From: Comamonadaceae bacterium
GTDB lineage: Bacteria > Pseudomonadota > Gammaproteobacteria > Burkholderiales > Burkholderiaceae_C
DNA length: 43,914 nucleotides
NCBI GenBank assembly: GCA_947503685.1
Contig: CANNEW010000002.1
Coordinates: 1-43,914 of the forward strand
Direction of reading: 5' to 3'
Below, piece by piece: positions 7,245 to 32,223 of the stretch; the stretch's first letter is position 1; every line of letters starts with the position of its first letter. Both the position numbers and the translations under genes were made by a program. A model generated the notes under the pieces. It saw only the letters and a program-made list of their open reading frames with translations. It had not been told where the DNA came from and ran no database searches.

Positions 7245-7880
7245 TTACCAGCGCAAAAACCGGGTGCCCAAACCCGCGCCCAATATCGCGCTCAAGCCCA
7301 TGCCGGCCGAGTACCACAGGGCGAAGAAGGTAAAGCTGTTCTCGGTACAGTGCAGCGAGTACAGCATCGCGGCCAGGGCGCCGGCACATAAACCGGACAT
7401 GGCACCCGTCAGTGCAGGCCGGGTCGGCGCCATGTCGCGCAGCGTCCACATCAATGCAGCCAATACGGGTAGAGCGACGAAAGCGATGCTCAAGGCACAC
7501 ACTTGCCAACTCGTCCCCAAGGCCAAGGCGCTGCGCTGCGCCACCGGAGCTTGCAGCAGTTGACTCATGCCTTGCCCGCCCATGGCCAGCAGTGCCAAAC
7601 CAATGGCCCAAGGCGCGTTGCCCATCTGCCGACCTGGATGCGCGAGGCTATAAATCAATGCTGCACTGAAAACGAGTAGCGCAAACAGCCACACCATCTT
7701 CAAGCCAAAGACCGAGGTGCTTGCGAATTCACTCAGCTTTGGATTCAGACCCATGTAAAGCACCATCACGCCACACACGGCCAGGGCCAGCGCCAAACGC
7801 CCACCGACTTGCCCGGGGGCGGGGCGCCGCGCCGGGCCGGCATCGTGCGCTAACAAAGCAATCAATTCATCGGTGTTCAT
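7245..7880 (-). CDS. nrsF: NrsF-family (DUF1109) membrane anti-sigma factor
   Basis: Six-TM-like protein MNTDELIALLAHDAGP...HCTENSFTFFALWYSAGMGLSAILGAGLGTRFLRW; ATGA overlap with the upstream sigma gene. Confidence 0.88.
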   Translation of the reverse strand: MNTDELIALLAHDAGPARRPAPGQVGGRLALALAVCGVMVLYMGLNPKLSEFASTSVFGLKMVWLFALLVFSAALIYSLAHPGRQMGNAPWAIGLALLAMGGQGMSQLLQAPVAQRSALALGTSWQVCALSIAFVALPVLAALMWTLRDMAPTRPALTGAMSGLCAGALAAMLYSLHCTENSFTFFALWYSAGMGLSAILGAGLGTRFLRW

Positions 7881-8437
7881 GGTTTCTCTCTCCATTGGGT
7901 GGCCAAGGCCTTTAAGCCGCGGTGCACATTCACTTTTACGGCCGCTTCGCTTTGTCCGGTCAAGGTCGCGGTCTCGGTGATCGACAGGCCTTGCAGCTTG
8001 GTGTGTTCAATCGCCAGGCGCTGTTTGTCGGGCAACAGCGTCAGCATATGGCTCAGGTCCCGGCGCGAGTCTGCAACTTCGGTCTCGCTGCTGGCGGCCA
8101 AGACTTCTGACCAGTCGTCGATGTCATCGTGCAAAGCCTCACGCCGGCCATGCGCGCGCAAATGGTCAATCCATTTGTAGCGCGCAATCGCGTACATCCA
8201 CGCCGTGAAAGGTTGCTCACTTTGGTAGGTGTGGCGTTTTTGATGAATGGCCAACAGAGTTTCTTGCACAAGGTCCTCCACATCACTCGGTTACGACTGC
8301 ATACGTCGATTCAGATAGCGCCGCAGGTAGCCACTGATCACCTTCAAAGCGCGCGCATAACAGGCGGCGTCACCCTCTAGGGCTTGCAGCCATAGCGCAT
8401 GCAATTCGAGTTCAATGGTTTGCAGGCTTTCGCTCAT
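7877..8437 (-). pseudogene. RNA polymerase sigma factor (ECF/SigF-like) interrupted by an in-frame TAA
   Basis: Manual reading from ATG 8437: MSESLQTIELELHALWLQALEGDAACYARALKVISGYLRRYLNRRMQS*PSDVEDLVQETLLAIHQKRHTYQ...; stop at 8291-8293, same frame continues with full sigma region 2/4. The supplied ORF track starts at GTG 8281. Confidence 0.8.
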
Positions 8438-8504: not shown

Positions 8505-8532
8505 GTAACTTTTCGGTGTTGTGCAGCGGATT
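8505..8532 (+). promoter_or_regulatory. Putative ECF-type promoter of the hvfA operon (GTAACT-N16-CGGATT)
   Basis: -35 GTAACT 8505-8510, 16-nt spacer, -10 CGGATT 8527-8532, divergent from the sigma promoter. Confidence 0.65.
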
Positions 8533-8616: not shown

Positions 8617-8958
8617 ATGAACAAGCAACAACTTCTCGCCATCGCTTTGGGCTCTGCTTTTGCCGCCGTGGCCATTCTGCCCGCCCATGCTGCGGGCAAT
8701 CCTTTCGCGGCCAAAACCTTGGACGCAGGCTACCAAGTCGCCCAAGCCGACATGAAAGCCGACATGAAAGCGGACATGAAAGGCGAGACCAAAGCCAAAG
8801 ACGCTAGCTGTGGGGCCGATAAAGACATGACCAAATCCATGGATAAAAAGAAAGACGGAAGCTGTGGCGCTGACACAAAAGTCGATATGAAGATGGATAG
8901 CAAAGCCAAAGACGGCAAGTGCGGTGAAGCCAAGTGCGGTGCGGAAAAAAAGAAATAA
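8617..8958 (+). CDS. hvfA: HvfA-like RiPP metallophore precursor (signal peptide plus repeated Cys-Gly motifs)
   Basis: MNKQQLLAIALGSAFAAVAILPAHAA signal peptide; four CG motifs (DASCG, DGSCG, DGKCG, EAKCG); SD CAGGAGA; followed by MNIO gene. Confidence 0.85.
   Translation: MNKQQLLAIALGSAFAAVAILPAHAAGNPFAAKTLDAGYQVAQADMKADMKADMKGETKAKDASCGADKDMTKSMDKKKDGSCGADTKVDMKMDSKAKDGKCGEAKCGAEKKK
8746..8781 (+). repeat. 3 x 12-bp in-frame tandem repeat in hvfA
   Basis: GCCGACATGAAA / GCCGACATGAAA / GCGGACATGAAA encoding (ADMK)3. Confidence 0.9.
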
Positions 8959-9001
8959 GCCTTGCCTCCAGCAGATTGATTTTCAAAGCTGAGCTTTTCG
9001 C

Positions 9002-9907
9002 ATGGGCACCATTGCGCTTCACTCTGCAGGCTTGGGTTTGCGCCGCGAGCTGATCCCGGCGCTGCAGCAAGAGGTGCCCTCAGCCGTCCAGTTTTTCGAG
9101 GTCGCCCCCGAAAACTGGGCGGGCATGGGGGGCCGCGCTGGCCGCGCTTTGCGGGCCTTTACCGAGCGCTTCCCTTTTGTTTGCCACGGCTTGTCGCTGT
9201 CTCTGGGTGGCCCTGGGCCGCTGGACGAAATCTTGTTACGCCGTACCAAGGGCTTTATGCGCGAACACGGCATCAGTCTGTTTACCGAACACTTGTCTTG
9301 GTGCGCGGACGACAGCCATCTGTACGAACTGTTGCCGATTCCTCTGACCGAAGAGGCGGTGCGCTACACCGCCGAGCGCATTGCAAGGGCGCAAGATATT
9401 TTGGGCATGCGCATCGGCGTGGAAAACGCCTCCACCTACATCGCGCCACCCGGCGCCGAAATGACCGAACCCGAATTTGTGCGCGCCGTGATCGAGCAGG
9501 CCGATTGCCTGCTGCACTTGGATGTGAACAATATCTATGTCAATAGCCAAAACTTTGGCTTTGACCCCCATGCTTATTTAGAGCAACTGCCACTGGAACG
9601 CACCTGCTATGTGCATGTGGCCGGTCACTATGTGGAAGACGATGGCCTGCTGATCGACACCCACGGCAGTGAGGTGATCGACCCGGTGTGGCAACTGCTG
9701 CAAGCCGCTTACCAGCGTATCGGCCATTCGGTTCCCACCTGCTTGGAGCGCGACTTCAACATCCCCGACTTGCCTACCTTGGCGCAAGAGGTGACCCACA
9801 TTGCACGCTTGCAAAAAGCCGCCTGGCGTCGCGTTTCAGAGCAGCCTTTATTGCCCGAAGTGCACCCAGCTTTGTTTCATGTAGCCTCACCTTGGCAGGT
9901 GGCCTGA
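9002..9907 (+). CDS. hvfB: MNIO-family (DUF692) iron-dependent RiPP-modifying oxidase, HvfB
   Basis: HGLSLSLGGPGPLD, EHLSW, IGVENASTYI, LLHLDVNNIYVNSQNFGFD, HVAGHY, ERDFNIP motifs of DUF692. Confidence 0.93.
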   Translation: MGTIALHSAGLGLRRELIPALQQEVPSAVQFFEVAPENWAGMGGRAGRALRAFTERFPFVCHGLSLSLGGPGPLDEILLRRTKGFMREHGISLFTEHLSWCADDSHLYELLPIPLTEEAVRYTAERIARAQDILGMRIGVENASTYIAPPGAEMTEPEFVRAVIEQADCLLHLDVNNIYVNSQNFGFDPHAYLEQLPLERTCYVHVAGHYVEDDGLLIDTHGSEVIDPVWQLLQAAYQRIGHSVPTCLERDFNIPDLPTLAQEVTHIARLQKAAWRRVSEQPLLPEVHPALFHVASPWQVA

Positions 9908-10641
9908 TGCTGGCCTTTCAATACTTTCAGCACGCGCTGGCGCAGCATCTGCGCGACCCACACCATACCCGACGTCCTGCAGGGGTACCACAACGCCGCA
10001 TGGCGGTTTACAACGAGCTGGTGTTCACCAATAGCTGCGGTTTTGTGGACAGCTGTTTTCCGGTCTGCCGCCAGTTGCTGGGCGAGGCGCGCTGGCGCAG
10101 GCTATGCCGCACCTTTGTCCGCGACTGGCCACTGCACACTCCCTGGTTTCGCGAGATCCCGCGTGAGTTTGTGCGCTACCTGAGCGAACACACCATTGCA
10201 CAAGCCCTGCCGCGCTGGTTGGCAGAGCTGGCCCATTACGAATGGGCCGAGCTGGCGGTGGACGTGATGGAGCCCGCGGTCCCTGAACACGACCCCCAAG
10301 GCGACATGATGCAAGCGCGCGTGCTGCTCAACCCCGCTCGGGTGGATGTGGCCAGTCAATGGCCGGTGCACCGCATCGGCCCGACCTGGCGGCCGCGAAA
10401 AACAGAACCTACTTTTCTGGTGGTGTTTCGCGATGCAGAGCTCGCAGTGCAATTTACCGAAATCAACGCGGTGACGGCGCATGTACTGGCGCTCTTGGAC
10501 AGCGGCCTGAGCGGCCAGCAGGCCTTTGCGCAACTGGCGCGTGAAATGGCGCATCCCGACCCAGTGGCCTTACAAGGCTTTGGCCAAGAACTTCTCATCG
10601 GCTTGCGTGCGCAAGGCGTCATTTTGGGCACCCTGACATGA
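9907..10641 (+). CDS. hvfC: HvfC (DUF2063) partner protein of the MNIO enzyme
   Basis: RMAVYNELVFTNSCGFVDSCFPVCRQLLGEARWRRLCRTFVRDWPLHTPWFREIPREFVRYL; TGATG overlap with hvfB. Confidence 0.92.
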   Translation: MLAFQYFQHALAQHLRDPHHTRRPAGVPQRRMAVYNELVFTNSCGFVDSCFPVCRQLLGEARWRRLCRTFVRDWPLHTPWFREIPREFVRYLSEHTIAQALPRWLAELAHYEWAELAVDVMEPAVPEHDPQGDMMQARVLLNPARVDVASQWPVHRIGPTWRPRKTEPTFLVVFRDAELAVQFTEINAVTAHVLALLDSGLSGQQAFAQLAREMAHPDPVALQGFGQELLIGLRAQGVILGTLT

Positions 10642-11144
10642 ACTCTGTACATATCTTTTTCCGCCATGGTCTGAACGCACTGGACACGGCAGGCCTGTGG
10701 CTTGGCATGCTTAGCCTGCGCCTGCTGCTGTCTTGGGAGTTTGGCGAGGCCGGTTTTGAAAAACTGCAGGGCAGTAACTGGTTTGCCGACATTCAAGACC
10801 AGTTTCCCTGGCCCTTCAAGCTGATTTCCGCCGATCTGAACTGGGCCATGGCCACGGGTTTTGAAATCGTGGGCGCCGTCGCCTTGGTCATCGGTCTGGG
10901 TACACGCTTCTTTTCGGCCTCGTTGATCGTGCTGACCGTTGTCGCCATATTCAGTGTGCATTGGCCGCAGGCCTGGGTCACTTACAGCGAACTGCTGCAG
11001 GGCTATGCCTTGACCGACAAAGGCCACGGCAACTTCAAGCTGCCCTTGATCTATATCGCCATGCTCCTGCCGCTGGTGTTCATGGGGCCAGGGCGCTTGT
11101 CGCTGGATGCGGCGCTGCGAGAGCGCCTGCGAGTGAAAACTTGA
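10638..11144 (+). CDS. hvfX: DoxX-family membrane protein (HvfX)
   Basis: LLLSWEFGEAGFEKLQGSNWF DoxX motif, 4 TM; ATGA overlap with hvfC. Confidence 0.88.
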   Translation: MNSVHIFFRHGLNALDTAGLWLGMLSLRLLLSWEFGEAGFEKLQGSNWFADIQDQFPWPFKLISADLNWAMATGFEIVGAVALVIGLGTRFFSASLIVLTVVAIFSVHWPQAWVTYSELLQGYALTDKGHGNFKLPLIYIAMLLPLVFMGPGRLSLDAALRERLRVKT

Positions 11145-11236: not shown

Positions 11237-12103
11237 ATGAAATTCAATCAATGGGCTGTTTCCATCGGTGTGGCAGTTGCGCTAACAGCCTGTGGCGGGA
11301 GCAGCGACGGGCCATCGCTCAATGTGCAGTTAACCGGGTTGGAAAATCTCGGTGCAAGCTCCGTTTATGAGGGTTGGCTGATTGTCAATGGTGCGCCTAA
11401 AAGTGCGGGACGATTCACAGTCAACGACCAAGGCGTGATGAGCCACAACAGTTTTGCGGTTGCCAGTGCGGATATCGCATCGGCGACGGCCTATGTTCTG
11501 ACCATCGAGCCGCAAAATGACACCGATCCCGCACCCACCAAGACGCATTTGCTGGCAGGTGATTTTGATGCGGCTCGCACGCTAGCGACTTTGAGTGTGG
11601 GGCATGCCGCAGCTTTAGGGACTGACTTTACGAGAGCCGCAGGCAAATTCTTTTTGGCCACCCCCACCAATCCGGGCACCGATGACCAAGGCATCTGGTG
11701 GATCGATCCCAGTTCGGGAAGCATGCAAGCGGGTTTAAGCTTGCCCACTTTACCTGCGGGTTGGGTGTATGAGGGCTGGGTGGTGGTGGACGGCAAACCC
11801 ACCACGACAGGCAGGTTTACCAGTGTGACGGAGGCAGACAGTGATGGTGCGGGACCCACCAAAGGTACTGGCCCAGCGCCGCCTTTTCCGGGGCAAGACT
11901 TCATCAATCCTGCCAAAAAGCTGCCCGGTGGGATGGCTGTGATTTCGATTGAGCCAGAGCCTGACAACAGCGCCGCGCCATTTTTGCTGAAACCCTTGTT
12001 GACCAATCCGATCAGCAATGCCACAGGCCCGAGCAATTTGCAGACCATGGTCAATCAGGCCAGCAAGGTCAACCCCAAAGGAACAGTGACGATTGTTCGA
12101 TGA
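11237..12103 (+). CDS. Lipoprotein resembling anti-sigma (RskA-type) domain, with two YEGW(L/V)(I/V)V(N/D)G repeats
   Basis: Lipobox ALTAC; SD AAGGAG; repeats YEGWLIVNGAPKSAGRF and YEGWVVVDGKPTTTGRF. Confidence 0.65.
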   Translation: MKFNQWAVSIGVAVALTACGGSSDGPSLNVQLTGLENLGASSVYEGWLIVNGAPKSAGRFTVNDQGVMSHNSFAVASADIASATAYVLTIEPQNDTDPAPTKTHLLAGDFDAARTLATLSVGHAAALGTDFTRAAGKFFLATPTNPGTDDQGIWWIDPSSGSMQAGLSLPTLPAGWVYEGWVVVDGKPTTTGRFTSVTEADSDGAGPTKGTGPAPPFPGQDFINPAKKLPGGMAVISIEPEPDNSAAPFLLKPLLTNPISNATGPSNLQTMVNQASKVNPKGTVTIVR

Positions 12104-12296: not shown

Positions 12297-12677
12297 ATGA
12301 AAAAAACCCTGACCTTGCTGGCCCTGTCTTTGACCGCCTGGCTGGCCCCAGCCCATGCGCTGGAAATAATGCCTTACACCTCCCAAGCTCTGATGGGCAA
12401 GCAACAAGCGGGCGAAGTGGTGGGTTTGCATTTCCATGCGGCATGGTGCCCGACTTGCCGAGCACAGGAAAAAGTGTTTAACAGTTTCAAAGGGGACGCC
12501 TCGGTGCCGGGCACCTTGCTGGTGGTGGACTACGACCAAGAGCGCGAACTCAAGCGTGAACTCGGCGTGCGCTCGCAATCGACCCTGATTGTCTACAAGG
12601 GCAAAGAGCAAAAACACCGATCGGGCGGTGTGACCGATGCGCAGGCTTTGCGTGCCGCATGGCTGACCGCTCCCTAA
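12297..12677 (+). CDS. Periplasmic thioredoxin-fold protein (CPTC active site)
   Basis: Signal peptide then HFHAAWCPTCRAQEKVFNSF. Confidence 0.85.
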   Translation: MKKTLTLLALSLTAWLAPAHALEIMPYTSQALMGKQQAGEVVGLHFHAAWCPTCRAQEKVFNSFKGDASVPGTLLVVDYDQERELKRELGVRSQSTLIVYKGKEQKHRSGGVTDAQALRAAWLTAP

Positions 12678-12704: not shown

Positions 12705-13433
12705 ATGGATCTGGCCATCAGTCACCTTGGTTTGAGCTTGCTCGCCGGCAGTTTGACCACCCTCTCACCTTGTGTGTTCCCCATCTTGCCAATGGTCTTG
12801 GGCGGGGCCGCGCAGGGTAATCGCCTGGCACCCTTGGCCATGGGGCTGGGCATGGCCTTGTCTTTTGCCGGCATTGGCGTGCTGATCGGCTCCTTGGGGC
12901 CCGTCATTGGTCTGGATGCAGACCATGTGCGCTTGTTTGGTGCAGCATTGTTGATGGCCCTGGGCTTGACGATGTGGGTGCCGACACTGAATGAACGTTT
13001 TGCCCAATGGATGATGCCACTGGCCAGTGGCGCTAACAATGTGTCTTCGCGCATGCAGGGCGACACCCTGGGCGGGGCCTTGATGTTGGGTGCCGTGTTG
13101 GGTTTGGTCTGGAGTCCCTGCTCCGGCCCCTTGCTGGCTTCGGCCTTGACCCTGGTGGCCAGTGAAGGCGGGGCCGTGCGTGGGGGTATTGTGTTGGGGC
13201 TGTTTGGTGTGGGTGCGGCCACGCCTTTGGTGGCGGTGGCTTACGCATCGCGCAGGGGCTTCCAGTCAGTGCGTGACAAAGTGTTGATGCACGGCGATCG
13301 GGTCAAAAAAGTATTCGGCGGATTGATTTTTCTGGCGGGCATCGCGATTGCCACCGGTGCCGACAAATGGCTTGAAGCGCAAGTGGTGGATCGCCTGCCT
13401 GACGCGTGGTTACGCTGGACTACCTTGTTTTGA
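12705..13433 (+). CDS. CcdA/DsbD-like transmembrane thiol-disulfide transporter
   Basis: LTTLSPCVFPILPMVLGGAAQG and VWSPCSGPLLASALTL Cys motifs in a multi-TM protein. Confidence 0.88.
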   Translation: MDLAISHLGLSLLAGSLTTLSPCVFPILPMVLGGAAQGNRLAPLAMGLGMALSFAGIGVLIGSLGPVIGLDADHVRLFGAALLMALGLTMWVPTLNERFAQWMMPLASGANNVSSRMQGDTLGGALMLGAVLGLVWSPCSGPLLASALTLVASEGGAVRGGIVLGLFGVGAATPLVAVAYASRRGFQSVRDKVLMHGDRVKKVFGGLIFLAGIAIATGADKWLEAQVVDRLPDAWLRWTTLF

Positions 13434-19093: not shown

Positions 19094-19981
19094 CTAGCGC
19101 GCGCGCACGCCGATGATGGAAAAGCGAATACGCGCGCAGCAATAATCGATCAGCGACACGGTGGCCAGGATGAGCAAAATCACAAACGCCATTTGCTGCA
19201 GTTCTAGTGTCCGGATTTGCTCTGACAAAATCAAACCAATGCCGCCCGCCCCCACGATGCCGATGATGGAGGCGCTGCGGGTGTTGGACTCAAAGGCATA
19301 CAGCACTTGGCTTAGCAAGACCGGCATCAGTTGGGGCAAGATGCCAAAGCGAACCGCCGACAAGGAGGAGCCGCCAGTGGAGAGCACGCCTTCGACTGGC
19401 TTGTCATCAGCGGCCTCTATCGCCTCAGAAAATAGCTTGCCGAAGATGCCCAGATCGGACATGAACAAGGCTAACACGCCTGCAAACGGACCCAAGCCGA
19501 CCACGTTGATCCAGATCAGCGCCCAGATCAAGATGTCCACGCCGCGCAAGGTGTCAAAGCTGCGCCTTGCAATAAACTTGACTACCTGGTTGATGGTAGT
19601 GTTGCGTGCAGCGAGAAAGCCCAGCGGAAATGCGGCGATGGCGGCCATCAGCGTTCCCAGCAAAGCGATGGCCAGCGTCTCCAGCATTGCATAAGCGTAA
19701 ATGCCAGCACGGTGCCAGCTGCCTGGGTCCGGTGGAATCATGCGTAATACCATGGAGCCTAACTCGCCTAGACCGCCAGCAATACGTGCGTAGGACATGT
19801 CCAGGGTATACACACCATAAACCAACAGACCAAGGGCCAAGCCAGCCAGCAGTAGCGCGGGAATATGCCCACGGTGGATGGCTTGGAAATGCACCGGGTA
19901 GCGCGCGCGCAATGCTGCCCGTGCTTTGGCATCGTCCTGTGTGGCAGCGGCACCTTGGATTGTTGGATGTAGGACACTCAT
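19094..19981 (-). CDS. phnE: Phosphonate ABC transporter permease
   Basis: Multi-TM with DKPVEGVLSTGGSSLSAVRFGILPQLMPVLLSQVLYAFESNTRSASIIGIVGAGGIG. Confidence 0.93.
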   Translation of the reverse strand: MSVLHPTIQGAAATQDDAKARAALRARYPVHFQAIHRGHIPALLLAGLALGLLVYGVYTLDMSYARIAGGLGELGSMVLRMIPPDPGSWHRAGIYAYAMLETLAIALLGTLMAAIAAFPLGFLAARNTTINQVVKFIARRSFDTLRGVDILIWALIWINVVGLGPFAGVLALFMSDLGIFGKLFSEAIEAADDKPVEGVLSTGGSSLSAVRFGILPQLMPVLLSQVLYAFESNTRSASIIGIVGAGGIGLILSEQIRTLELQQMAFVILLILATVSLIDYCCARIRFSIIGVRAR

Positions 19982-20835
19982 GCCTCTCGCTCCTGGCCCA
20001 ACAGGCGGTGGCGTACGCGCTCGGTCAACGCGTCAATCACCATCACCGTGCTGATGATCAAAACCAGCAAAGCGCTCACATCGGCGTAGTAAAACTTGCG
20101 TATCACTTCGAGCAAGGTCTGCCCGATGCCGCCGGCGCCGACAAAGCCCAGCACGGCGGCACCGCGCACATTGATCTCAAAACGCAACAAGGCGTAGCTG
20201 GCGAAGTTGGACGCCACTTGCGGCAGCACCGCAAAGCGCACTTTGTGCAGCCAATTACCCCCCGTGGCCAGTACGCCGTCCACCGGCTTCATGTCCACGT
20301 TCTCGACCACCTCGGCAAACAACTTGCCCAAAGCGCCCGTGGTGTGAATGGCCAGCGCCAATATGCCGGGCAGCGGCCCGAGACTGAAGGCCACGACAAA
20401 AATCAGCGCAAATACGATCTCGGGAACGGTACGCGAAAACTCCAGCAAGCGCCGTGTCGCAAACACCACCCAGGTGTTGTGCGTCATGTTTTTGCTGGCC
20501 AGAAAGCACAGCACCAGCGCGGCACAGGCACCCAGCAACGTGCCCACATAAGCCATCAGCAAGGTCTCGCCCATGAGAGCCAACCATTTTTTCCAACCCC
20601 AAAACCACTCTACCGGGTCGCTGATCACCCATTGCCCGTTTTCTAGGTGAGCGATGCGGTAGAAGTAGCTGGTAAAACTACCGATGTTGTCCAGAAACTT
20701 GGAGGCCGATATCTCAGCGATATGGCCTGCGAACAGGACGGAGACGCCAAGCACCAGCAAACCCAGCCAGATCTGGCGGCGCTTGGCCGCCACTGCGTGC
20801 GCGTAGGCTTGGGTTCTGGTGCTTGGCGAGTTCAC
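19978..20835 (-). CDS. phnE: Phosphonate ABC transporter permease (second copy)
   Basis: MKPVDGVLATGGNWLHKVRFAVLPQVASNFASYALLRFEINVRGAAVLGFVGAGGIG; ATGA overlap with the next gene. Confidence 0.93.
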   Translation of the reverse strand: MNSPSTRTQAYAHAVAAKRRQIWLGLLVLGVSVLFAGHIAEISASKFLDNIGSFTSYFYRIAHLENGQWVISDPVEWFWGWKKWLALMGETLLMAYVGTLLGACAALVLCFLASKNMTHNTWVVFATRRLLEFSRTVPEIVFALIFVVAFSLGPLPGILALAIHTTGALGKLFAEVVENVDMKPVDGVLATGGNWLHKVRFAVLPQVASNFASYALLRFEINVRGAAVLGFVGAGGIGQTLLEVIRKFYYADVSALLVLIISTVMVIDALTERVRHRLLGQEREA

Positions 20836-20841
20836 GCTCGC

Positions 20842-21741
20842 TTACTTCTTGCGCAGTGCGTCAACAAAAGTGTTGAGTGCGACTACGGGCAGGTAAGCCT
20901 CATGGGTGACGGTCTGGAAGGGCTCGTTTTTGCCGCCGGACAATTTTTCAAAAGCAGCTTTGTCTTTCTTGGGTGCATCAAAGAAGGCTTGTTCGATTTT
21001 CTTCTTCAGGTCAGCTGGGAGGCTGTCCAGGTAAGCGATAGGCGAGTTCACGATCTGGTCCGACTTGTAAATGATACGGAAGTCTTCTTTTTTGACCATG
21101 CCCTTGTCAGCCATGCGGATCAGCTCGGAGTCGTTTTCATTGTTCCACCAGTTAGCCGCCACGTCGACCGTGCCTTGGTTGAGCGCCATCACTGCGTTGA
21201 CATGGCTGCCGCTGTAAACCACTTTGCCAAAGAACTCCTCGGGCTTGATACCCATTTTGTCCATGGCGTAGCGCGGTACGTTGTTGCCGGAGGTGGAGTT
21301 GGGGTCGACCAAGGCGATGCTCTTGCCTTTGAGGTCTTCAACTTTTTGGTAAGGCGAGTTGGCCTTCACGTAGAACACCGAGTGATAGCCTTTGACGCCG
21401 CCCTTGTTCACCTCGATGGCAAAGGGCGTGGTCTTCACACCAATCATGCGGGCTCGGGCATAGGCCGCCGGGCCGTAGTAGGCAACATGGATTTGTTCAG
21501 CGCGCTGGCCTTCGATCACGGCGGCGTAGTCACCGGCAATACGCAGTTTGACCGGAATGCCGATCTCGCGCGACAGGTAAGCCACGAAGTCCGTGTAGCG
21601 CTCGGTCACCATGGCGGCGTTTTCGTCTGGGATGCTGGCAAATACCAACTCGGGGTATTTAGCTTTCCAGTCTTGGGCTTGGGCAGAGGCCACCAGGGCG
21701 CTGGAGGCGGCTAGGGCGAGGAGAACGCGGCGATTGAACAT
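20842..21741 (-). CDS. phnD: Phosphonate ABC transporter substrate-binding protein
   Basis: Signal peptide; VAYYGPAAYARARMIGVKTTPFAIEVNKGGVKGYHSVFYVKANSPYQKVEDLKGKSIALVDPNSTSG. Confidence 0.95.
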   Translation of the reverse strand: MFNRRVLLALAASSALVASAQAQDWKAKYPELVFASIPDENAAMVTERYTDFVAYLSREIGIPVKLRIAGDYAAVIEGQRAEQIHVAYYGPAAYARARMIGVKTTPFAIEVNKGGVKGYHSVFYVKANSPYQKVEDLKGKSIALVDPNSTSGNNVPRYAMDKMGIKPEEFFGKVVYSGSHVNAVMALNQGTVDVAANWWNNENDSELIRMADKGMVKKEDFRIIYKSDQIVNSPIAYLDSLPADLKKKIEQAFFDAPKKDKAAFEKLSGGKNEPFQTVTHEAYLPVVALNTFVDALRKK

Positions 21742-21791
21742 GAAAATTCCTTAAAAATAAATGAAGGGGAGGGGGAATACGAAATAAAGCG

Positions 21792-22613
21792 TCAGGCGTG
21801 TCGCGCGAAGGGCAGCACCACGCCAGGCGCGCCGCTTTGCGCCACCGCGCCGGTGTGTACCTCGGCGGCCTCGATGCCATAAAGGGCGTGCACCAAATCC
21901 TCGGTCAGCGCATGGGGCGCGCCATCAAAGACCACGCGTCCAGCCGACATGCCAACCAAGCGGTCACAGTAGTTGCGCGCCACGTCCAGTGAGTGAAGAT
22001 TGCACAGGACGGTAATGCCCAGGTCTTTATTGATGCCGCGCAGCGCGTCCATCACTAACTGGGTGTTGCGTGGGTCCAGTGAGGCAATCGGTTCGTCGGC
22101 CAAAATGATTTTGGGTTCTTGGACCAGTGCGCGGCAAATGGCCACGCGCTGCTGCTGGCCGCCAGAGAGTTGGTCGCAGCGTTGAGCGGCAAAGTCGGCC
22201 ATGCCAAAGCGATCTAGAGCTTCTAGGGCGGCGAGTTTGTCGGCATCGCTCCACAAGGTCAGCAGCGCGCGCCAAGTTGGCACACTGGTCAGTCGCCCCA
22301 TCAGCACATTGGTGAGTACATCCAAACGGCCAATCAGGTTAAATTGCTGAAACACCATGGCGCAGTTACGCCGCCATTCGCGCAAAGCCGGGCCTTGCAA
22401 ATCAGTGACCACTGTCCCATCGTAGCTAACGCTGCCCGAGGAGGGTTCGTTCAGGCGGTTGATCATTCTTAGCAGCGTGGACTTGCCCGCACCGGAGCGG
22501 CCGATCACCCCAACAAAGCTGCCCGCATCGACGCTCAGTGTGACGCTATCGACGGCAGTGGTACTGCCAAAGCGTTTGCTAAGTTGGTGTAGAGAAAGTT
22601 GCGCCTGCGTCAT
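21792..22613 (-). CDS. phnC: Phosphonate ABC transporter ATP-binding protein
   Basis: Walker [21 protein letters not shown] signature, Walker [12 protein letters not shown]. Confidence 0.94.
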
Positions 22614-22674
22614 ACGGGCGCAGCATAGTTTTTGGATGTGTCAGAAAAATTACGAAATTCGCGATAAGCCGTAT

Positions 22675-23844
22675 TTAGACCACCCGCACTCCGCCGCGCC
22701 AGACCGCCCGTACCACGGGTTGTTGCCGGCCATCGCCCAGTGGCGTCATGCGCACTTGCACCAGATCGGCGCGCAGGCCTATGGCAATAGAGCCGCGGTC
22801 GTGCAAACCTATGGACTGCGCTGGGTTGCGGCTCACCATCGCCACCGCCGCAGGCAAGCTCAGGCCCGCCGTCTCGGTCAGGCGCACCGTGGCCGAAAGC
22901 AGGCTGCCGGGCACATAGTCAGAGGAGACTATGTCCACCAGGCCCAAGCGCGCAAGTTCAATGGCGGACACATTGCCCGAGTGCGAACCGCCGCGCACCA
23001 CATTAGGCCCGCCCATGATGGTGGCCATAGCGCGCTCGCGCGCCGCTTGCGCAGCGGCAACAGTGGTCGGAAATTCGCACACCGTAGCGCCCTCGGCAAA
23101 TGCTTGTTCCACATGCGCTACGGTGGTGTCGTCGTGGCTGGCCAGGGCAACGCCGTGTTGTTTGCAATAGTCGGTAAAGTAGCTGCGGTGGGGCTGTGCA
23201 TAGCGGGCCTGGTGTTCTTTGGACAGGGCGACGCGCTCTTCAAACTTGGCCTGACTCCAGCCTTTTTTGCCGGTGAAGTAAATCCACGCGTGCTCAATAT
23301 TTTCCCACTGCCTTTGACCCGGGGTGTGGTCCATCAAAGAAATCATGCGCACCATCGGGTTGCCGATGAAGGGCGCAAACAAGTCCAAGGTGTTGGGCGC
23401 TGGAAGTTCGCAGCGCACATGCAGCAAATGCTCAGCGCGCAGCACACCGCGCCCAGAAAATTCTGCCAGACATTCCAGCACCGAAGTCCATTCACTGCCG
23501 CGTACGCTATCGGGGTCGGACTCGCCTACACCCAGGGCATCGAGCACGGTGGTGATGCCCGCAGCCGCAATCTCGGCGTCGTGCGCCAGCAGGGCTGGCG
23601 CGTCGTCCCAACGCACTTTGGGGCGCGGCATCAGGTGGCGTTCAAAATTGTCGGTATGCACCTCCACCATCCCTGGCAAAAGGTAATCGCCCTCCAAGTC
23701 AATGGCGCCGGGCAGGGCGCTATGGCCTAAGTCCACCGAGGCGATGGTGCCGCTTTGGCACAGCAGGCTGCCATGCACGACTTCGTCCGCCAGTACCAGG
23801 CGGGCGTTGCTAAAAAGAGTGGGGTGTGTACTTGGGCTGTTCAT
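22675..23844 (-). CDS. phnM: Alpha-D-ribose 1-methylphosphonate 5-triphosphate diphosphatase
   Basis: PGMVEVHTDNFERHLMPRPKVRWDD; SHDDTT; start at MNSPSTHP, overlapping phnL stop. Confidence 0.94.
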   Translation of the reverse strand: MNSPSTHPTLFSNARLVLADEVVHGSLLCQSGTIASVDLGHSALPGAIDLEGDYLLPGMVEVHTDNFERHLMPRPKVRWDDAPALLAHDAEIAAAGITTVLDALGVGESDPDSVRGSEWTSVLECLAEFSGRGVLRAEHLLHVRCELPAPNTLDLFAPFIGNPMVRMISLMDHTPGQRQWENIEHAWIYFTGKKGWSQAKFEERVALSKEHQARYAQPHRSYFTDYCKQHGVALASHDDTTVAHVEQAFAEGATVCEFPTTVAAAQAARERAMATIMGGPNVVRGGSHSGNVSAIELARLGLVDIVSSDYVPGSLLSATVRLTETAGLSLPAAVAMVSRNPAQSIGLHDRGSIAIGLRADLVQVRMTPLGDGRQQPVVRAVWRGGVRVV

Positions 23845-24569
23845 GGTGCGCTGGAAATAGGTTGCATGGTCACGGTGCGGCTGGCCACGGCTTGGGCCAC
23901 CAGACTGTCGTGAAATATTCCGAGAATCCCCACCCCTTGGGCGCGTGCCTCGCAGATCAGGTCGATCACGGTTTGGGTGTTCTCGGGGTCGAGCGAGGCG
24001 GTGGGTTCGTCTAGCAGCAGTAGCGGGCGAGGTTTGATAAAGCTGCGCGCGATGTTGATGCGCTGCTGCTCGCCACCCGAAAAAGTGGCCGGTGGGAGCT
24101 GCCATAGCGAAGGCGCAATGCGAAGGCGCGTAAGCCACTGCGCCGCCACTTCGCGCGCCTGCTCGGCGCTGTAGAGGCTCGCGCCACCTTCGAGCAAGGG
24201 TTCTGCCACGATATCAATCGCCGCGACACGCGGAATCACCCGCAAGAACTGGCTCACATAGCCCATGGCCTGGCTGCGCAGGTGCAGCACGGTGCGGGCG
24301 TTGGCCTGGGTGATGTCAATCGCAGGGCCTTGGGTATCGCGCACCAAAATACTCCCGGTACTTGCGCGGTAATTGCCAAAAGCGAGTTTGAGCACTGTGC
24401 TCTTACCCATGCCAGAGGGGCCACTGAGGCGCACGCATTCCCCCGGCATCAGCTGCAGGTCAAAGTCCTTGAGCACCGCCAGCACGGTGTTGCTTTGCAG
24501 GTGCAATACAAACTGCTTGCTGACTGCCTGCATGTGCAGCAGCGGCGTGGGAGAGGTGCTTGCGTTCAT
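23841..24569 (-). CDS. phnL: C-P lyase subunit PhnL (ABC-type)
   Basis: Walker A GPSGMGKST, FSGGEQQRINIARSFI, LLLLDEPTASLDPEN; position in phn operon. Confidence 0.94.
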   Translation of the reverse strand: MNASTSPTPLLHMQAVSKQFVLHLQSNTVLAVLKDFDLQLMPGECVRLSGPSGMGKSTVLKLAFGNYRASTGSILVRDTQGPAIDITQANARTVLHLRSQAMGYVSQFLRVIPRVAAIDIVAEPLLEGGASLYSAEQAREVAAQWLTRLRIAPSLWQLPPATFSGGEQQRINIARSFIKPRPLLLLDEPTASLDPENTQTVIDLICEARAQGVGILGIFHDSLVAQAVASRTVTMQPISSAP

Positions 24570-25354
24570 GGTTGCAGTACGGATGACACCAAGAGCTGGG
24601 TGTAGGGGTGCTGCGGGTCGTCCAGCACCTGGTCGGTCAGGCCGGTTTCTACTGCCATGCCGCCTTGCATGACCAGCATGCGCTGCGCCAGCAGACGCGC
24701 TACTGCCAGGTCATGGGTGACGATGATGGCCGCCAGCCCCATTTGGCGTGTGAGCATACGCAGCATGTCTAATAAGCGCGCTTGCACCGACACGTCCAGA
24801 CCAGAGGTCGGTTCATCCATAAAAACCAGGCGCGGCTGGGTGATCAAATTGCGCGCAATTTGCAGGCGCTGGCGCATGCCACCGGAAAAGGTATCTGGCC
24901 GGTCGTCAATGCGACTGGGGCTAATTTCAACCCGTTCCAGCCAGTCGGTAGCCTGGGCCCGCAATTGGCCATAGTGGCGCTGCCCCAGTGCCATCAGGCG
25001 CTCGGCTACGTTGGCGCCGGCCGAGACGTTCATGCGCAGGCCGTCAGCCGCGTTTTGGTGCACAAAACCCCAGTCGGTGCGGGTTAGCATGCGCCGCTGG
25101 GCTTCCGTCATGGCGTAAATATCTTGCAGATCGCTGTCTTTGAGCGCAAATGCAACCTGGCCCGAAAGCGGTGTGTGGCGCGCGGCCACGGCATTGAGCA
25201 AGGTGCTTTTGCCCGAGCCTGACTCCCCCACGATGGCCAGCACTTCGCCCGGCCAAAGGTCAAAGGAAATGTCGCGCACGACGGTGCGTGCACCGTAAGC
25301 GCAACTCAGATGCCGCACTTGCATCAAGGGTGACAGTGCGTCTAGGTGCTTCAT
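24566..25354 (-). CDS. phnK: C-P lyase subunit PhnK (ABC-type)
   Basis: Walker A GESGSGKST, FSGGMRQRLQIARNLI, VFMDEPTSGLDVSVQARLLD. Confidence 0.94.
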   Translation of the reverse strand: MKHLDALSPLMQVRHLSCAYGARTVVRDISFDLWPGEVLAIVGESGSGKSTLLNAVAARHTPLSGQVAFALKDSDLQDIYAMTEAQRRMLTRTDWGFVHQNAADGLRMNVSAGANVAERLMALGQRHYGQLRAQATDWLERVEISPSRIDDRPDTFSGGMRQRLQIARNLITQPRLVFMDEPTSGLDVSVQARLLDMLRMLTRQMGLAAIIVTHDLAVARLLAQRMLVMQGGMAVETGLTDQVLDDPQHPYTQLLVSSVLQP

Positions 25355-26271
25355 GCGCTTGCCACCCCATTGCCCGAATCGCTGGGCGCTGCCAAGGAGG
25401 CCGCCTGCCGTTTGCCGCAGTAGTCGCTGTCCGAACAGGCAAACATCCGTCCCCCTTGGTCGTCCATCAGCACTTCGTCCAGGAAGCTTTCACGCGATCC
25501 GCACAGTTCGCAGGCCTGGCCCCAACGCTGTACCTCAAACGGGTGGTCTTCAAAGCCAAGACTTTCTACCGGCGTGTAGGGCGGCACCGCGTAAATGCGT
25601 TTTTCCCGACCGGCGCCAAATAGCTGCAAGGCGGGGTTGAGATGCATCTTGGGGTTGTCAAACTTGGGGATCGGCGAGGGCGACATGATGTAGCGGCCAT
25701 TGACCAAGACCGGGTAGTCATAGGTGGTGGCAATATGGCCATAGTGCGCCAGGTCTTCAAACAGGTTCACATGCATCAAGCCGTACTCTTGCAAGGCGTG
25801 CAGCTTGCGGGTTTCGAACTCGCGCGGCTCCAGGTGTTGCATAGGCTCTGGCACTGGCACCTGGTAGACCAATATTTGGCCTTCGCGCAAGGGAGTCTCC
25901 GGAATGCGGTGGCGGGTCTGGATAATGCTGGCGGCCAGGGTGTCTGTGCTCACTTGCACGCCGGTGGTGCGCTGAAAAAACCGCCGGATGTTGACCGCAT
26001 TGACCGTATCGTCCGAGCCCTGGTCTATCACTTTGAGCACATCCTGGGGCCCGATCACCGAGGCCGTCACCTGGATACCACCGGTGCCCCAACCGTAGGG
26101 CAATGGCATTTCGCGCGAGCCAAAGGGCACTTGGTAGCCCGGAATAGCCACCGCTTTGAGAATGGCGCGGCGGATCATGCGCTTGGTGCGCTCGTCCAGG
26201 TAGGCAAAATTGATGTGCGGGTCGCGCATCACGCCCACGGGCTGGGCCTGGACTTCAGTCGGCTGCATCGC
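25351..26271 (-). CDS. phnJ: Alpha-D-ribose 1-methylphosphonate 5-phosphate C-P lyase
   Basis: NFAYLDERTKRMIRRAILKAVAIPGYQVPFGSREMPLPYGWGTGG; CELCGSR...FACSDSDYC Fe-S cysteines. Confidence 0.96.
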   Translation of the reverse strand, partial: AMQPTEVQAQPVGVMRDPHINFAYLDERTKRMIRRAILKAVAIPGYQVPFGSREMPLPYGWGTGGIQVTASVIGPQDVLKVIDQGSDDTVNAVNIRRFFQRTTGVQVSTDTLAASIIQTRHRIPETPLREGQILVYQVPVPEPMQHLEPREFETRKLHALQEYGLMHVNLFEDLAHYGHIATTYDYPVLVNGRYIMSPSPIPKFDNPKMHLNPALQLFGAGREKRIYAVPPYTPVESLGFEDHPFEVQRWGQACELCGSRESFLDEVLMDDQGGRMFACSDSDYCGKRQAASLAAPSDSGNGVASA

Positions 26272-27349
26272 TAGGTTCCTGGTTGGCAAAGGCCTGGCGC
26301 ATCTTGCGCACCAGATCGAGCTCGGACTGGAAGTCCACGTAGTGCGGCAGCTTTAAGTGCTGTACAAAGCCCGAGCTCTCCAGGCTGTCACTGTGCGACA
26401 AGACAAACTCTTGCATCTGCGCCGGCGATGTCACCGCCTCGCCCAAATCTTCTGCCCGTAATGCGCGGTCTACCAAGCTCATGGCCATGGCCTTGCGTTC
26501 GCTGTGGCCAAAGGCCAGGCCGTAGCCGCGCGTGAACTGTGGCGGCTGCGTTTGGCTGCCTTGAAACTGGTTGATCATCTGGCACTCGGTCAGTGGCAGG
26601 TCGCCGATGGAAATGCTAAAGCCCAGTTCCTCGGGGGTAATGCACAGCTCTACCGTGCCAAAGCGGATCTCGCCCACAAAGGGGTGGGTTTCTGAGTAGC
26701 CGCGCTGGGTGGAGTAGGCCATCGCCAGCAAAAAGCCTTCGTCGGCGCGCGCCAAATTTTGCAAGCGTGCCGAGCGGTCTGCCGGAAAGCGCAATGGCTG
26801 GCGCGTCAGGTCAAACGGATCGGGGTCGCCGGCCGGTGGTTCCTGGGTTTCCAGCAGACTTTCGTGGTGCAGCAAGTCCACCACGCGTGGCATAGCTTCG
26901 GTGCTGGGGGTTTCGAGCCGCGCCGAGGCCAGGGTGTTGCCGCTTGCCAATAGGCTGAAATCGAGCAGGCGCTGGGTGTAATCGTAGGTCGGGCCAAGCA
27001 CCTGGCCGCCAGGCAGGTCTTTGAAAGCAGCGGATATGCGCCGCGCAATCTGCATTTTTCCGGTATCTACGGGCTCGGTGTAACCCAGGCGCGGCAAGGT
27101 GGCGCGGTAGGCGCGCAGCAAAAATATGGCTTCGACCAAATCACCCGCGCTTTGCTTGATGGCCAGCGCAGCCAGTTGCGGGTCGTAGACCGAGCCCTCG
27201 GTCATCACCCGATCCACACCCAGTCTCAATTGCTGGCAAATTTGCGCAACGCTCAGTTCCGCAACGGCTGGGTCGCCCCGGCGTTCCTGGGCCAGCAAGT
27301 CATAGCTGGCCAAAATAGCAGATTCGCCCCCTTTGACTGCAACATACAT
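26255..27349 (-). CDS. phnI: C-P lyase subunit PhnI
   Basis: MYVAVKGGESAILASYDLLAQERRGDP start; YSTQRGYSETHPFVGEIRFG. Confidence 0.95.
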   Translation of the reverse strand: MYVAVKGGESAILASYDLLAQERRGDPAVAELSVAQICQQLRLGVDRVMTEGSVYDPQLAALAIKQSAGDLVEAIFLLRAYRATLPRLGYTEPVDTGKMQIARRISAAFKDLPGGQVLGPTYDYTQRLLDFSLLASGNTLASARLETPSTEAMPRVVDLLHHESLLETQEPPAGDPDPFDLTRQPLRFPADRSARLQNLARADEGFLLAMAYSTQRGYSETHPFVGEIRFGTVELCITPEELGFSISIGDLPLTECQMINQFQGSQTQPPQFTRGYGLAFGHSERKAMAMSLVDRALRAEDLGEAVTSPAQMQEFVLSHSDSLESSGFVQHLKLPHYVDFQSELDLVRKMRQAFANQEPSDAAD

Positions 27350-27354
27350 GGCGT

Positions 27355-27972
27355 TTATGTCTCCAATAAGGTGGTGCGTGGCAGGCCCACCAAGGACAGG
27401 CCATGGGTGAACAAGAAGTCCACGCCGCAAGGAAAGTGCGCTTGCTCGGCCTGCCGCTGGGAACAAAAATCCTGGGCGAGACCGCCTATGTGCAATTGCG
27501 TCCTGCCCGCAATGCCCGGCCCGCGCAGGCTCCAGCCAGAACCTTGGGTTTGCAAACTGTCTACTTGTACGACACAGGTGGCGGACAGGTCGGGGTATTC
27601 GGCGCTGCCTTGGGCGAAGCTGGCTAAGGGCGGTAATTCGGCGGCTTGTGCCACCCACGCAAAGTCGGCCTGCGCCGGGTCTTGCACAATCGAGCAGCCA
27701 GTGTGAAAGCGCAGCCAGGCCGCGGCGTCACTGTGGGTAAAACCGTCGGAGAGCCAGAGTTTGCAGTCTTGGTCGAGCAGGGCCAACAGCAAGGCCGCTG
27801 CCGCTGGGTGCGCACCGCAGGGCGCTTGCATCCCCTTTAGCGGCCCCGACGCATCCATCACCGCAATGCGCCCAGGCAAGGAGAGCGCGTCCAGCGCATG
27901 GCGAAACACGCTTTGGCTGCACAGCGCGGGATCGGCAAAGCCGCGTCCTAGGTCATTGAGTTGCGCTTGCAT
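27355..27972 (-). CDS. phnH: C-P lyase subunit PhnH
   Basis: FRHALDALSLPGRI; FLFTHGLSLVGLPRTT C-terminal region. Confidence 0.93.
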   Translation of the reverse strand: MQAQLNDLGRGFADPALCSQSVFRHALDALSLPGRIAVMDASGPLKGMQAPCGAHPAAAALLLALLDQDCKLWLSDGFTHSDAAAWLRFHTGCSIVQDPAQADFAWVAQAAELPPLASFAQGSAEYPDLSATCVVQVDSLQTQGSGWSLRGPGIAGRTQLHIGGLAQDFCSQRQAEQAHFPCGVDFLFTHGLSLVGLPRTTLLET

Positions 27973-29916: not shown

Positions 29917-32223
29917 TTAAATCACGGTAACCGCAATGGCAGACTGGACAAACACTTCCAGCCCCAAGGCCTGGTTGAAATACGCGTTGTAGTTCTGCCC
30001 GTCCAAGGTCAGCTGGCCATGGGCCAACCAGCTTTGGTCGTTTGAACTGCCCCATTGCTTGCTCAGTGTGAGTTTGTCCGCACTGTCACCATCAATGCGC
30101 ATTTGTAGGTGGTCTTTAAAGGTGTCGGCAAAGGAAAAACTGTTTTCGACCCCCAACGCCAACACGTCTGCGATGGACACCTTGAGTGTTTGCGCTCCAT
30201 TGTCTCGCATATCCAGGTGGTTGATTGCACCCTGCCCGTCGCGTGCAGGCGTGAGGGTATAAAGCGACGACAGATCCAGAGTCTGTTCGCTCGCCAAAGC
30301 ATATTTACCGACAGACCCCACCAATTTCCCGGGCTCAAAGGCGCCGGAATCAATGGACGACGTGGTCAATAAAGAAATACTTCCCGTCAAATGTCTAAAG
30401 TCCCAAGCCTGTGCATTGGTTTTAAGCCATTCGTTACCCGCCTTGTCTACGAAACGGATGCTGAACTCACCAGATTCAAAGTGGTTTTGACCGTTCAGGT
30501 TCAAACTGCCCGTGGTCTGGGTAATTCCGTTGAAGGAATAAACCCCTTGTTCGTCGGCGTTAAAACTCATTCGGAGGTAGTCGAATGTGCCGGCCTGCGA
30601 GCTCTCAGCCGGATTATCAACCCTTGGCGTGCGCAAATCGATGGTGAATGCCTGGCTGCTGGCGCCCATCTGGTTTCCGGCCGTATCCACAATGTAGGAC
30701 TTGAGTACATAGCTAGTGGCGACCCCCTGGGTTCCCAATGGGACCGAGCTGCTGTCAAAGGCCCAGTCGCCGGCGCCAGAGGGTGTCAGGTATTGATACG
30801 TTACGATTTTGCCCCTGCTGTCCAGGACCTCGGTTAGCACACGGCCGGTGCTAGCGTCAAAGGCACCCGTTCCCGCGCTGCGCGTGACGGCGCCTGTAAA
30901 TGTCAGCAGTCGGTCGTTGCTAAGAAAGTCCGCTGCGCTAGTGCCCGTATCGGTCTGTAACAGGCCAATGTTCGGAACAAAAGCGGTGTTGGGATCGACT
31001 TGCCCATCCCATTTTTTTTGTGGCTGCGTATCGACGGTGACTTGACGCGTCGATGGCGCAGCAGTCAAACTATTGCCGGCTGTATCTGTCAATTGCGCTT
31101 TCAGGGTGTATTGCCCGTCAGCCAGCGGCAGCGCAGCACCTGACCAGGCCCAAGTCCAAATACCTGCGGTTTGAACCGGTTTAATGTATTGACTGGCCAC
31201 TACGAGCGCCTGTGCATCAAGCAGTTGTACTTGTAGCCAGTCATCGGGATTGAAGGCGGCACTGCTTGTATTGAGTGTGCCAGCCCAAGTCAGGGTGTTA
31301 TCACCCGTCAGGAAGTCCGCAGCGTCAAACCCCGTGTCCTGGCTGATCGTATCGATAGGCAGGCCCACGTTCTGGCTGGAACTGCTTGTGCTGGTGTCCA
31401 GAGTGAACGGGGTTCCGTCTGCGCTCGCGCTATTGCCTGCAGCGTCCGTTACGGTCACTTTGTAGTTCTGCACATTACCAACCAGTGCCTCGGTGATGGG
31501 GATCAGGAATTGGCCTTGCGGGTCGGCCCTGCCTTCATAGACCTTGCCGCCAATGGCAATTTTGACGATCGCATTGGCTTCGGTTGTGCCCGAAATGCGA
31601 GGTTTGTCATTGCTGGTGATATGGTCTGAATTACTCTGTCCAGTGTCATCGGCGCCGTAGAGTTGTGACTGCTTGATCGTAGGCAGCCTGACTTCGGAGG
31701 CGGTTTTACCGCCGCCGGCGGCCAGTGCACCAACTAACAACACAGGCGCTGCCAATAAGGGGTTGAGGCCAGCAGCAGCCACTAAGCCACCAAGGGCGGC
31801 AGGCTCTATAAATTCTTCTACGAGGATCTGCCCTGAACCCAAGGCCATGCCAGTGGTGGGGGTGCCATCGCCCATCTGCCCTAGGCTGCGTGACCATTCA
31901 CCGGATTCGGGAATGTAGGCGTGATAAACCCCGAATTGTAGTTCGCCAATTAAATCACTTTGCGATGCGCCGCTTGGGTTGTAGAAGTCAGTGATGATGA
32001 GATCGGCCTGCTCTCGGCCATCGAAGCCGATCCGCAGGTCCCGACCCTTTCGAATGACGCGAATAGTGTCCGGCGCCAGGCCGGTACTGCTGTCTACGAG
32101 TTGAAAGCGCGTACCGGGCAGGCCATTGACCGTCGTAGCGCCCAAGGATGTCGATGTATTGATCTCGACGAGGGTGGCAGCACCTTGGTCAGGGAGTATT
32201 TTGACTTTGTATGACTTTTTCAT
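29917..32223 (-). CDS. Bap-like surface protein with Ig-like repeats
   Basis: Bap-prefix-like N-terminus, repeated DTAGNSLTAAPSTRQVTVDT / VTDAAGNSASADG / DKAGNEW modules. Confidence 0.7.
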   Translation of the reverse strand: MKKSYKVKILPDQGAATLVEINTSTSLGATTVNGLPGTRFQLVDSSTGLAPDTIRVIRKGRDLRIGFDGREQADLIITDFYNPSGASQSDLIGELQFGVYHAYIPESGEWSRSLGQMGDGTPTTGMALGSGQILVEEFIEPAALGGLVAAAGLNPLLAAPVLLVGALAAGGGKTASEVRLPTIKQSQLYGADDTGQSNSDHITSNDKPRISGTTEANAIVKIAIGGKVYEGRADPQGQFLIPITEALVGNVQNYKVTVTDAAGNSASADGTPFTLDTSTSSSSQNVGLPIDTISQDTGFDAADFLTGDNTLTWAGTLNTSSAAFNPDDWLQVQLLDAQALVVASQYIKPVQTAGIWTWAWSGAALPLADGQYTLKAQLTDTAGNSLTAAPSTRQVTVDTQPQKKWDGQVDPNTAFVPNIGLLQTDTGTSAADFLSNDRLLTFTGAVTRSAGTGAFDASTGRVLTEVLDSRGKIVTYQYLTPSGAGDWAFDSSSVPLGTQGVATSYVLKSYIVDTAGNQMGASSQAFTIDLRTPRVDNPAESSQAGTFDYLRMSFNADEQGVYSFNGITQTTGSLNLNGQNHFESGEFSIRFVDKAGNEWLKTNAQAWDFRHLTGSISLLTTSSIDSGAFEPGKLVGSVGKYALASEQTLDLSSLYTLTPARDGQGAINHLDMRDNGAQTLKVSIADVLALGVENSFSFADTFKDHLQMRIDGDSADKLTLSKQWGSSNDQSWLAHGQLTLDGQNYNAYFNQALGLEVFVQSAIAVTVI

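Follow-up and report, generated by a model that had tools for sequence, protein, structure and literature searches.

The window, a 43,914-nucleotide stretch of DNA from a Comamonadaceae bacterium, probably carries an hvfABCX (captophorin/oxazolin) RiPP cluster under the control of a sigmaF/NrsF-type envelope-stress switch (Table 1). The most likely reading is that of an ordinary captophorin/oxazolin cluster serving against periplasmic copper or oxidative stress. A first-pass annotation had described a secreted precursor of 113 aa that carries four Cys-Gly motifs, followed by overlapping genes for an MNIO, its DUF2063 partner and a DoxX protein. Translation of 8617-8958 agrees with the first part of this description, and the gene junctions bear out the second: hvfB starts 43 nt behind the precursor gene, hvfB and hvfC overlap by 1 nt (TGATG), and hvfC and hvfX by 4 nt. 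The extent given for the locus (8617-11144) covers these genes but is incomplete, as a sigma/NrsF gene pair, the promoters and a thioredoxin-DsbD gene pair had been missed. On one side the locus reaches to 7245, on the other probably to 13433.

Table 1. Features of the cluster and its flanks, with positions in the window.
Feature	Position	Strand	Details
NrsF anti-sigma factor gene, downstream of sigma gene	7245..7895	-	PF06532 175 bits; NrsF equivalog NF042994 123 bits, below cut-off (300)
ECF sigma factor gene, divergent from precursor gene	7877..8437	-	Sigma70_r2/r4_2 after stop; read-through frame
SigmaF-type promoter of sigma/nrsF operon, GTAACTTTTTCAAACCCACCAGCGAA	8446..8471	-	22/24 loci
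SigmaF-type promoter of hvfABCX, GTAACTTTTCGGTGTTGTGCAGCGGA	8505..8530	+	22/24 loci
HvfA-type precursor	8617..8958	+	113 aa: signal peptide, leader NPFAAKTLDAGYQVAQAD, four Cys-Gly sites
Isolated site 1, DASCG (Cys65)	8800..8814	+	
Isolated site 2, DGSCG (Cys83)	8854..8868	+	
Tandem sites 3 and 4, DGKCGEAKCG (Cys102, Cys107)	8911..8940	+	
HvfB, MNIO (DUF692) maturase	9002..9907	+	PF05114 329 bits; NF003818 392.5 vs 360 bits; 3BWW homologue
HvfC, DUF2063/RRE partner (PME1)	9907..10641	+	PF09836, PF22106; NF050145 271 vs 142 bits; 3DEE homologue
HvfX, DoxX-family membrane protein	10638..11144	+	PF07681; NF050144 144 vs 80 bits
Third sigmaF-type promoter, GTAACTTATGACGGCGTCCAAACGAA	12194..12219	+	GTAACT-N16-CGAA, 103 nt before thioredoxin gene
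Thioredoxin-like protein with signal peptide (AWCPTC), probable redox accessory	12297..12677	+	PF00085
DsbD/CcdA-type membrane thiol-electron carrier, probable redox accessory	12705..13433	+	PF02683

The three genes behind the precursor support the family placement. HvfB, HvfC and HvfX all score above their NCBIfam equivalog cut-offs, and their Pfam and NCBIfam E-values (1e-21 to 1e-118) lie far beyond chance, which upholds the earlier assignment to an HvfA/MNIO locus. The maturase stays below the cut-off of the BufB equivalog NF050167 (254.5 vs 310 bits). The precursor has a Sec-like signal peptide, MNKQQLLAIALGSAFAAVAILPAHA, as judged by eye, and its core motifs read KDASCGADK, KDGSCGADT and KDGKCGEAKCGAE. 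Its dN/dS of 0.06-0.12 against three relatives indicates purifying selection and hence a real gene. The profile search that the first-pass annotation had proposed for the precursor places it only in part. The HvfA-family domain NF050137 (KCGExKCG) passes marginally (20.3 bits vs a cut-off of 19.5), and the HvfA equivalog NF050188 (oxazolin precursor) fails clearly (19.1 vs 95). As six of the seven related precursors tested also miss NF050188, this failure reflects a narrow model more than the window locus. A Pfam search returned neither DUF2282 nor any other match to the precursor, which therefore lacks the mark of bufferin 1. The window precursor is thus a member of the HvfA family and not an HvfA equivalog.

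The cluster closely resembles the captophorins of the Lys-Cys group, namely hvfABCX/oxazolin of Haemophilus influenzae, gonophorin and fontiphorin (Buf_EGKCG of Antoine et al. 2025), whose products carry 5-thiooxazoles and bind copper according to the available text of PMC13097082. Shared with these systems are the order precursor-MNIO-DUF2063-DoxX, a precursor with a signal peptide and a KCGExKCG tandem. Unlike them, the window has a sigma/NrsF gene pair lying divergent to the precursor gene, and a thioredoxin-DsbD pair there carries the same type of promoter; moreover, oxazolin has three AEGKCGEGKCG pairs, whereas in the window precursor a single tandem pair is joined by two isolated SCG sites. 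MNIO, DUF2063 and DoxX genes together with adjoining sigma and anti-sigma genes are also found in the bufferin-1 cluster of Caulobacter (CC3254-3257, sigmaF/NrsF) and in gig of Cupriavidus metallidurans. The Caulobacter precursor is, however, a DUF2282 protein, unlike that of the window.

A single HvfB search across genome contigs gave 80 loci, mostly from Comamonadaceae/Limnohabitans, then from Rhodocyclaceae and others; the nearest HvfB relatives are 94% and 91% identical. In most of these loci a precursor gene stands in the same place, and almost all of them encode an upstream precursor that has the leader NPFxxxxLxxGYxxA and repeated Cys-Gly motifs. The clusters of Limnohabitans and other Comamonadaceae (L003-L019, L022, L031, L035, L036; HvfB 73-94% identical) have the same locus order, leader, motif types and promoters as the window, but in most of their precursors the CG sites number five or six and there are fewer Met residues. 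Counts of 5-mers in the Comamonadaceae-like group (DGKCG 44, EAKCG 29, EGKCG 16, DASCG 11, EASCG 9, DGSCG 7, EGSCG 6) show that all four window motifs are common, and DASCG, DGSCG, DGKCG and EAKCG all keep the EGKCG pattern of an acidic residue, a small residue, Lys or Ser, Cys and Gly. The core had been called divergent, and it does depart from EGKCG; it is not unique, since the same motifs occur throughout the related Comamonadaceae precursors. The ADMK triplet, listed as a further deviation, turned out to be a spacer of variable copy number, present three times in the window and twice in the nearest relative (L003).

From these departures the first-pass annotation had derived a different modification pattern or metal preference for the whole product. 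The motifs do differ from the EGKCG consensus and include only one tandem Lys pair, but the features of the enzyme argue against this. FonB residues Arg15, Arg16, Asp249 and Phe250, which touch the substrate or serve as base, are matched by R14, R15, D251 and F252 of the window HvfB and are near-invariant across 81 sequences. Loss of D242 or H244 abolishes HvfB activity (PMC13419390), and the conserved DxH pair D219 and H221 of the window HvfB probably corresponds to these residues, as judged by motif via the 3BWW homologue. FonBC fully modifies DGKCG, tolerates exchange of Lys for Ala, Arg or Thr and requires Gly or Ala after Cys (available text of PMC13097082, also for the FonB residues). 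All four window sites lie within these rules; Ser before Cys is not among the variants reported in that text. With motifs common in the Comamonadaceae group and specificity and catalytic residues unchanged, we rejected a different metal or chemistry as the leading reading and regard it as very improbable.

Two further candidates did not hold up. Replacement of lost Cys by Met as Cu(I) ligands showed a weak negative correlation within Comamonadaceae (Spearman -0.40, p 0.047, among related species) that was gone over all 77 precursors (-0.08, p 0.49). Several HvfB columns associate, without phylogenetic correction, with the split between Ser-containing and Lys-only systems, and no known contact residue is among them. 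We also considered recent horizontal transfer as a possibility. HvfB is rare nearby, with a best other match of 44% identity in 60 sampled genomes of the genus and scores above cut-off in three of 151 family genomes, window genome included, but the GC content is not distinctive (57.5% vs 58.7%). Separately, the precursors of eight loci (L052, L055, L056, L057, L060, L064, L067 and L082) fuse Cys-Gly repeats to EF-hand-like segments (DANKDGKVSKEEW), which corresponds to the second EGKCG precursor type in the accessible part of PMC12452194.

The Cys-Gly sites follow a spacing pattern. Ser/Thr sites were isolated in all 23 main-set precursors that have such sites as well as a tandem pair, and Lys sites include pairs five residues apart. 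Across the main set, 50 Ser/Thr sites were isolated and none was in tandem; of the 378 Lys sites, 310 were in tandem and 68 isolated. The corresponding Fisher p of 1e-32 is not to be taken at face value because the sites are not independent, given block duplication of repeats and related species. Moraxella (L059) and Lautropia (L063) show the same pattern. In a second sample, drawn from other Gammaproteobacteria, Ser/Thr sites were few, and there was one exception, L172, with a Ser site in tandem (EGSCGEGKCG). We found no mention of the pattern in the cited literature, and it is a modest new point.

Such spacing might mean that HvfA-type precursors hold two functional classes of Cys-Gly site: tandem Lys sites would become Cu(I)-chelating thiooxazole pairs, whereas the isolated Ser sites would meet a different fate. 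Applied to the window, only the KCG-EAKCG tandem would be converted to 5-thiooxazoles, and the isolated SCG Cys would stay thiols or be modified differently, serving as ligands or redox sites of their own; the co-regulated thioredoxin-DsbD pair might keep them reduced, or they might act in redox sensing. The ordinary reading has against it that just two of the four precursor Cys (Cys102 and Cys107) have the tandem Lys surroundings for which modification was shown. In favour of two classes, the available text of PMC13097082 reports that a FonA fragment with one repeat was unmodified in vitro and one with two repeats was modified. The promoter type common to the thioredoxin-DsbD pair points the same way. 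On the other hand, the tolerance of FonBC for substitutions of Lys speaks against such classes, isolated Lys sites are common elsewhere, so that isolation alone need not block modification, and, as repeats copy in blocks, the pattern may be ancestry; L172 breaks it as well. We therefore hold two classes of site to be a tentative idea, unlikely compared with an ordinary captophorin/oxazolin cluster.

The region upstream of the precursor gene bears on regulation. Of two sites there, GTAACT-N16-CGGA is oriented towards the precursor and GTAACT-N16-CGAA towards the sigma gene; 22 of the 24 aligned loci have each of them with exact spacing, and both resemble the Caulobacter sigmaF consensus GTAACC-N16-CGAA (PMC3511200). 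The promoter pattern has only 15 sites in the 2.64-Mb genome, and the only three with GTAACT all lie in this cluster. An NrsF-domain gene beside an ECF sigma gene, together with these GTAACC-N16-CGAA-like promoters, identifies a sigmaF/NrsF module, with the sigma frame interrupted here. A sigmaF/NrsF divergon has been described for the DUF2282 (bufferin-1) cluster of Caulobacter (PMC3511200), gig of Cupriavidus has a similar layout (PMC10304878), and hvf-type clusters of H. influenzae and Neisseria share control by ECF sigma factors (PMC7907618). Sigma/NrsF genes were reported for Buf1 and not Buf2 clusters in the available part of the landscape paper PMC12452194, and we found no mention of them for EGKCG clusters in its main text.

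The interruption is an in-frame TAA at 8291-8293 (- strand), codon 49 of the sigma gene in this assembly, a position with a sense codon in the relatives compared; sigma genes of the Limnohabitans and other Comamonadaceae relatives lack an internal stop. Taken at face value, and with NrsF intact, this could mean that the strain has lost its sigma factor and that the cluster, silent or expressed at a constitutively low level, is itself being lost. However, all other genes have open frames and evolve under purifying selection (dN/dS 0.06-0.36), the promoters are intact, and the sigma gene itself has no excess of amino-acid changes (two non-synonymous, stop included, vs six synonymous in the window lineage). 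The genome is a draft in 312 contigs, 81% complete, in which single-base errors occur. The TAA either arose very recently or is an error of the assembly, and we consider decay of the locus unlikely.

Downstream, the third promoter of the same type precedes the thioredoxin gene. A thioredoxin gene adjoins the hvf genes in 14 related loci, and the DsbD-type gene comes after it in related loci too. The promoter is kept where hvfX and the thioredoxin gene are set apart by a lipoprotein gene or by a longer gap (L003, L008, L009, L011, L017, with a spacer one base shorter, and L036), and is absent where the thioredoxin gene lies directly behind hvfX (L005, L007, L012), as expected if the latter is co-transcribed with hvfX. 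We found no mention of thioredoxin or DsbD in the main text of PMC12452194 or PMC13097082, and the co-regulated pair is a second modest new point. In the window, a putative lipoprotein (LTACGGSS) is encoded at 11237-12103 between hvfX and the thioredoxin gene; it has two matches to RskA_C, the anti-sigma-K C-terminal domain, lacks the cytoplasmic anti-sigma part and occurs in six related loci. In L020, L023 and L046, the thioredoxin-DsbD pair stands directly behind hvfC and there is no HvfX match, as if the pair replaced the DoxX gene. Further along the window, the - strand holds phosphonate uptake and use genes at 19097-27658 (a phosphonate-binding protein, two permeases, an amidohydrolase, an ABC ATPase and PhnI), probably a C-P lyase cluster, and at 29917-32223 the gene for a 768-aa protein with bacterial Ig-like (Big_13) domains.

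By analogy with the characterised homologues, we propose the following course for the preferred captophorin/oxazolin cluster. Periplasmic metal or oxidant stress would relieve the hold of the membrane anti-sigma factor NrsF, and the ECF sigma factor would then read GTAAC-N17-CGRA promoters, namely its own, that of hvfABCX and that of the thioredoxin-DsbD pair. HvfC would recruit the precursor to HvfB, which, with iron and O2, is predicted to convert the Cys in (D/E)(G/A)(K/S)CG to 5-thiooxazoles. The signal peptide would export the product, which may bind Cu(I) in the periplasm, and HvfX and the thioredoxin-DsbD pair would probably serve redox upkeep.

If this reading holds, the sigmaF/NrsF switch known from bufferin clusters also governs the HvfA-type clusters for thiooxazole peptides of freshwater Comamonadaceae. 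Their precursors, which combine Lys-type with Ser-type sites in a single peptide, are natural substrates that would allow a clean test of what an MNIO reads around Cys. The thioredoxin-DsbD pair with the same promoter type is a hint that an exported, thiol-bearing product may need redox upkeep in the periplasm.
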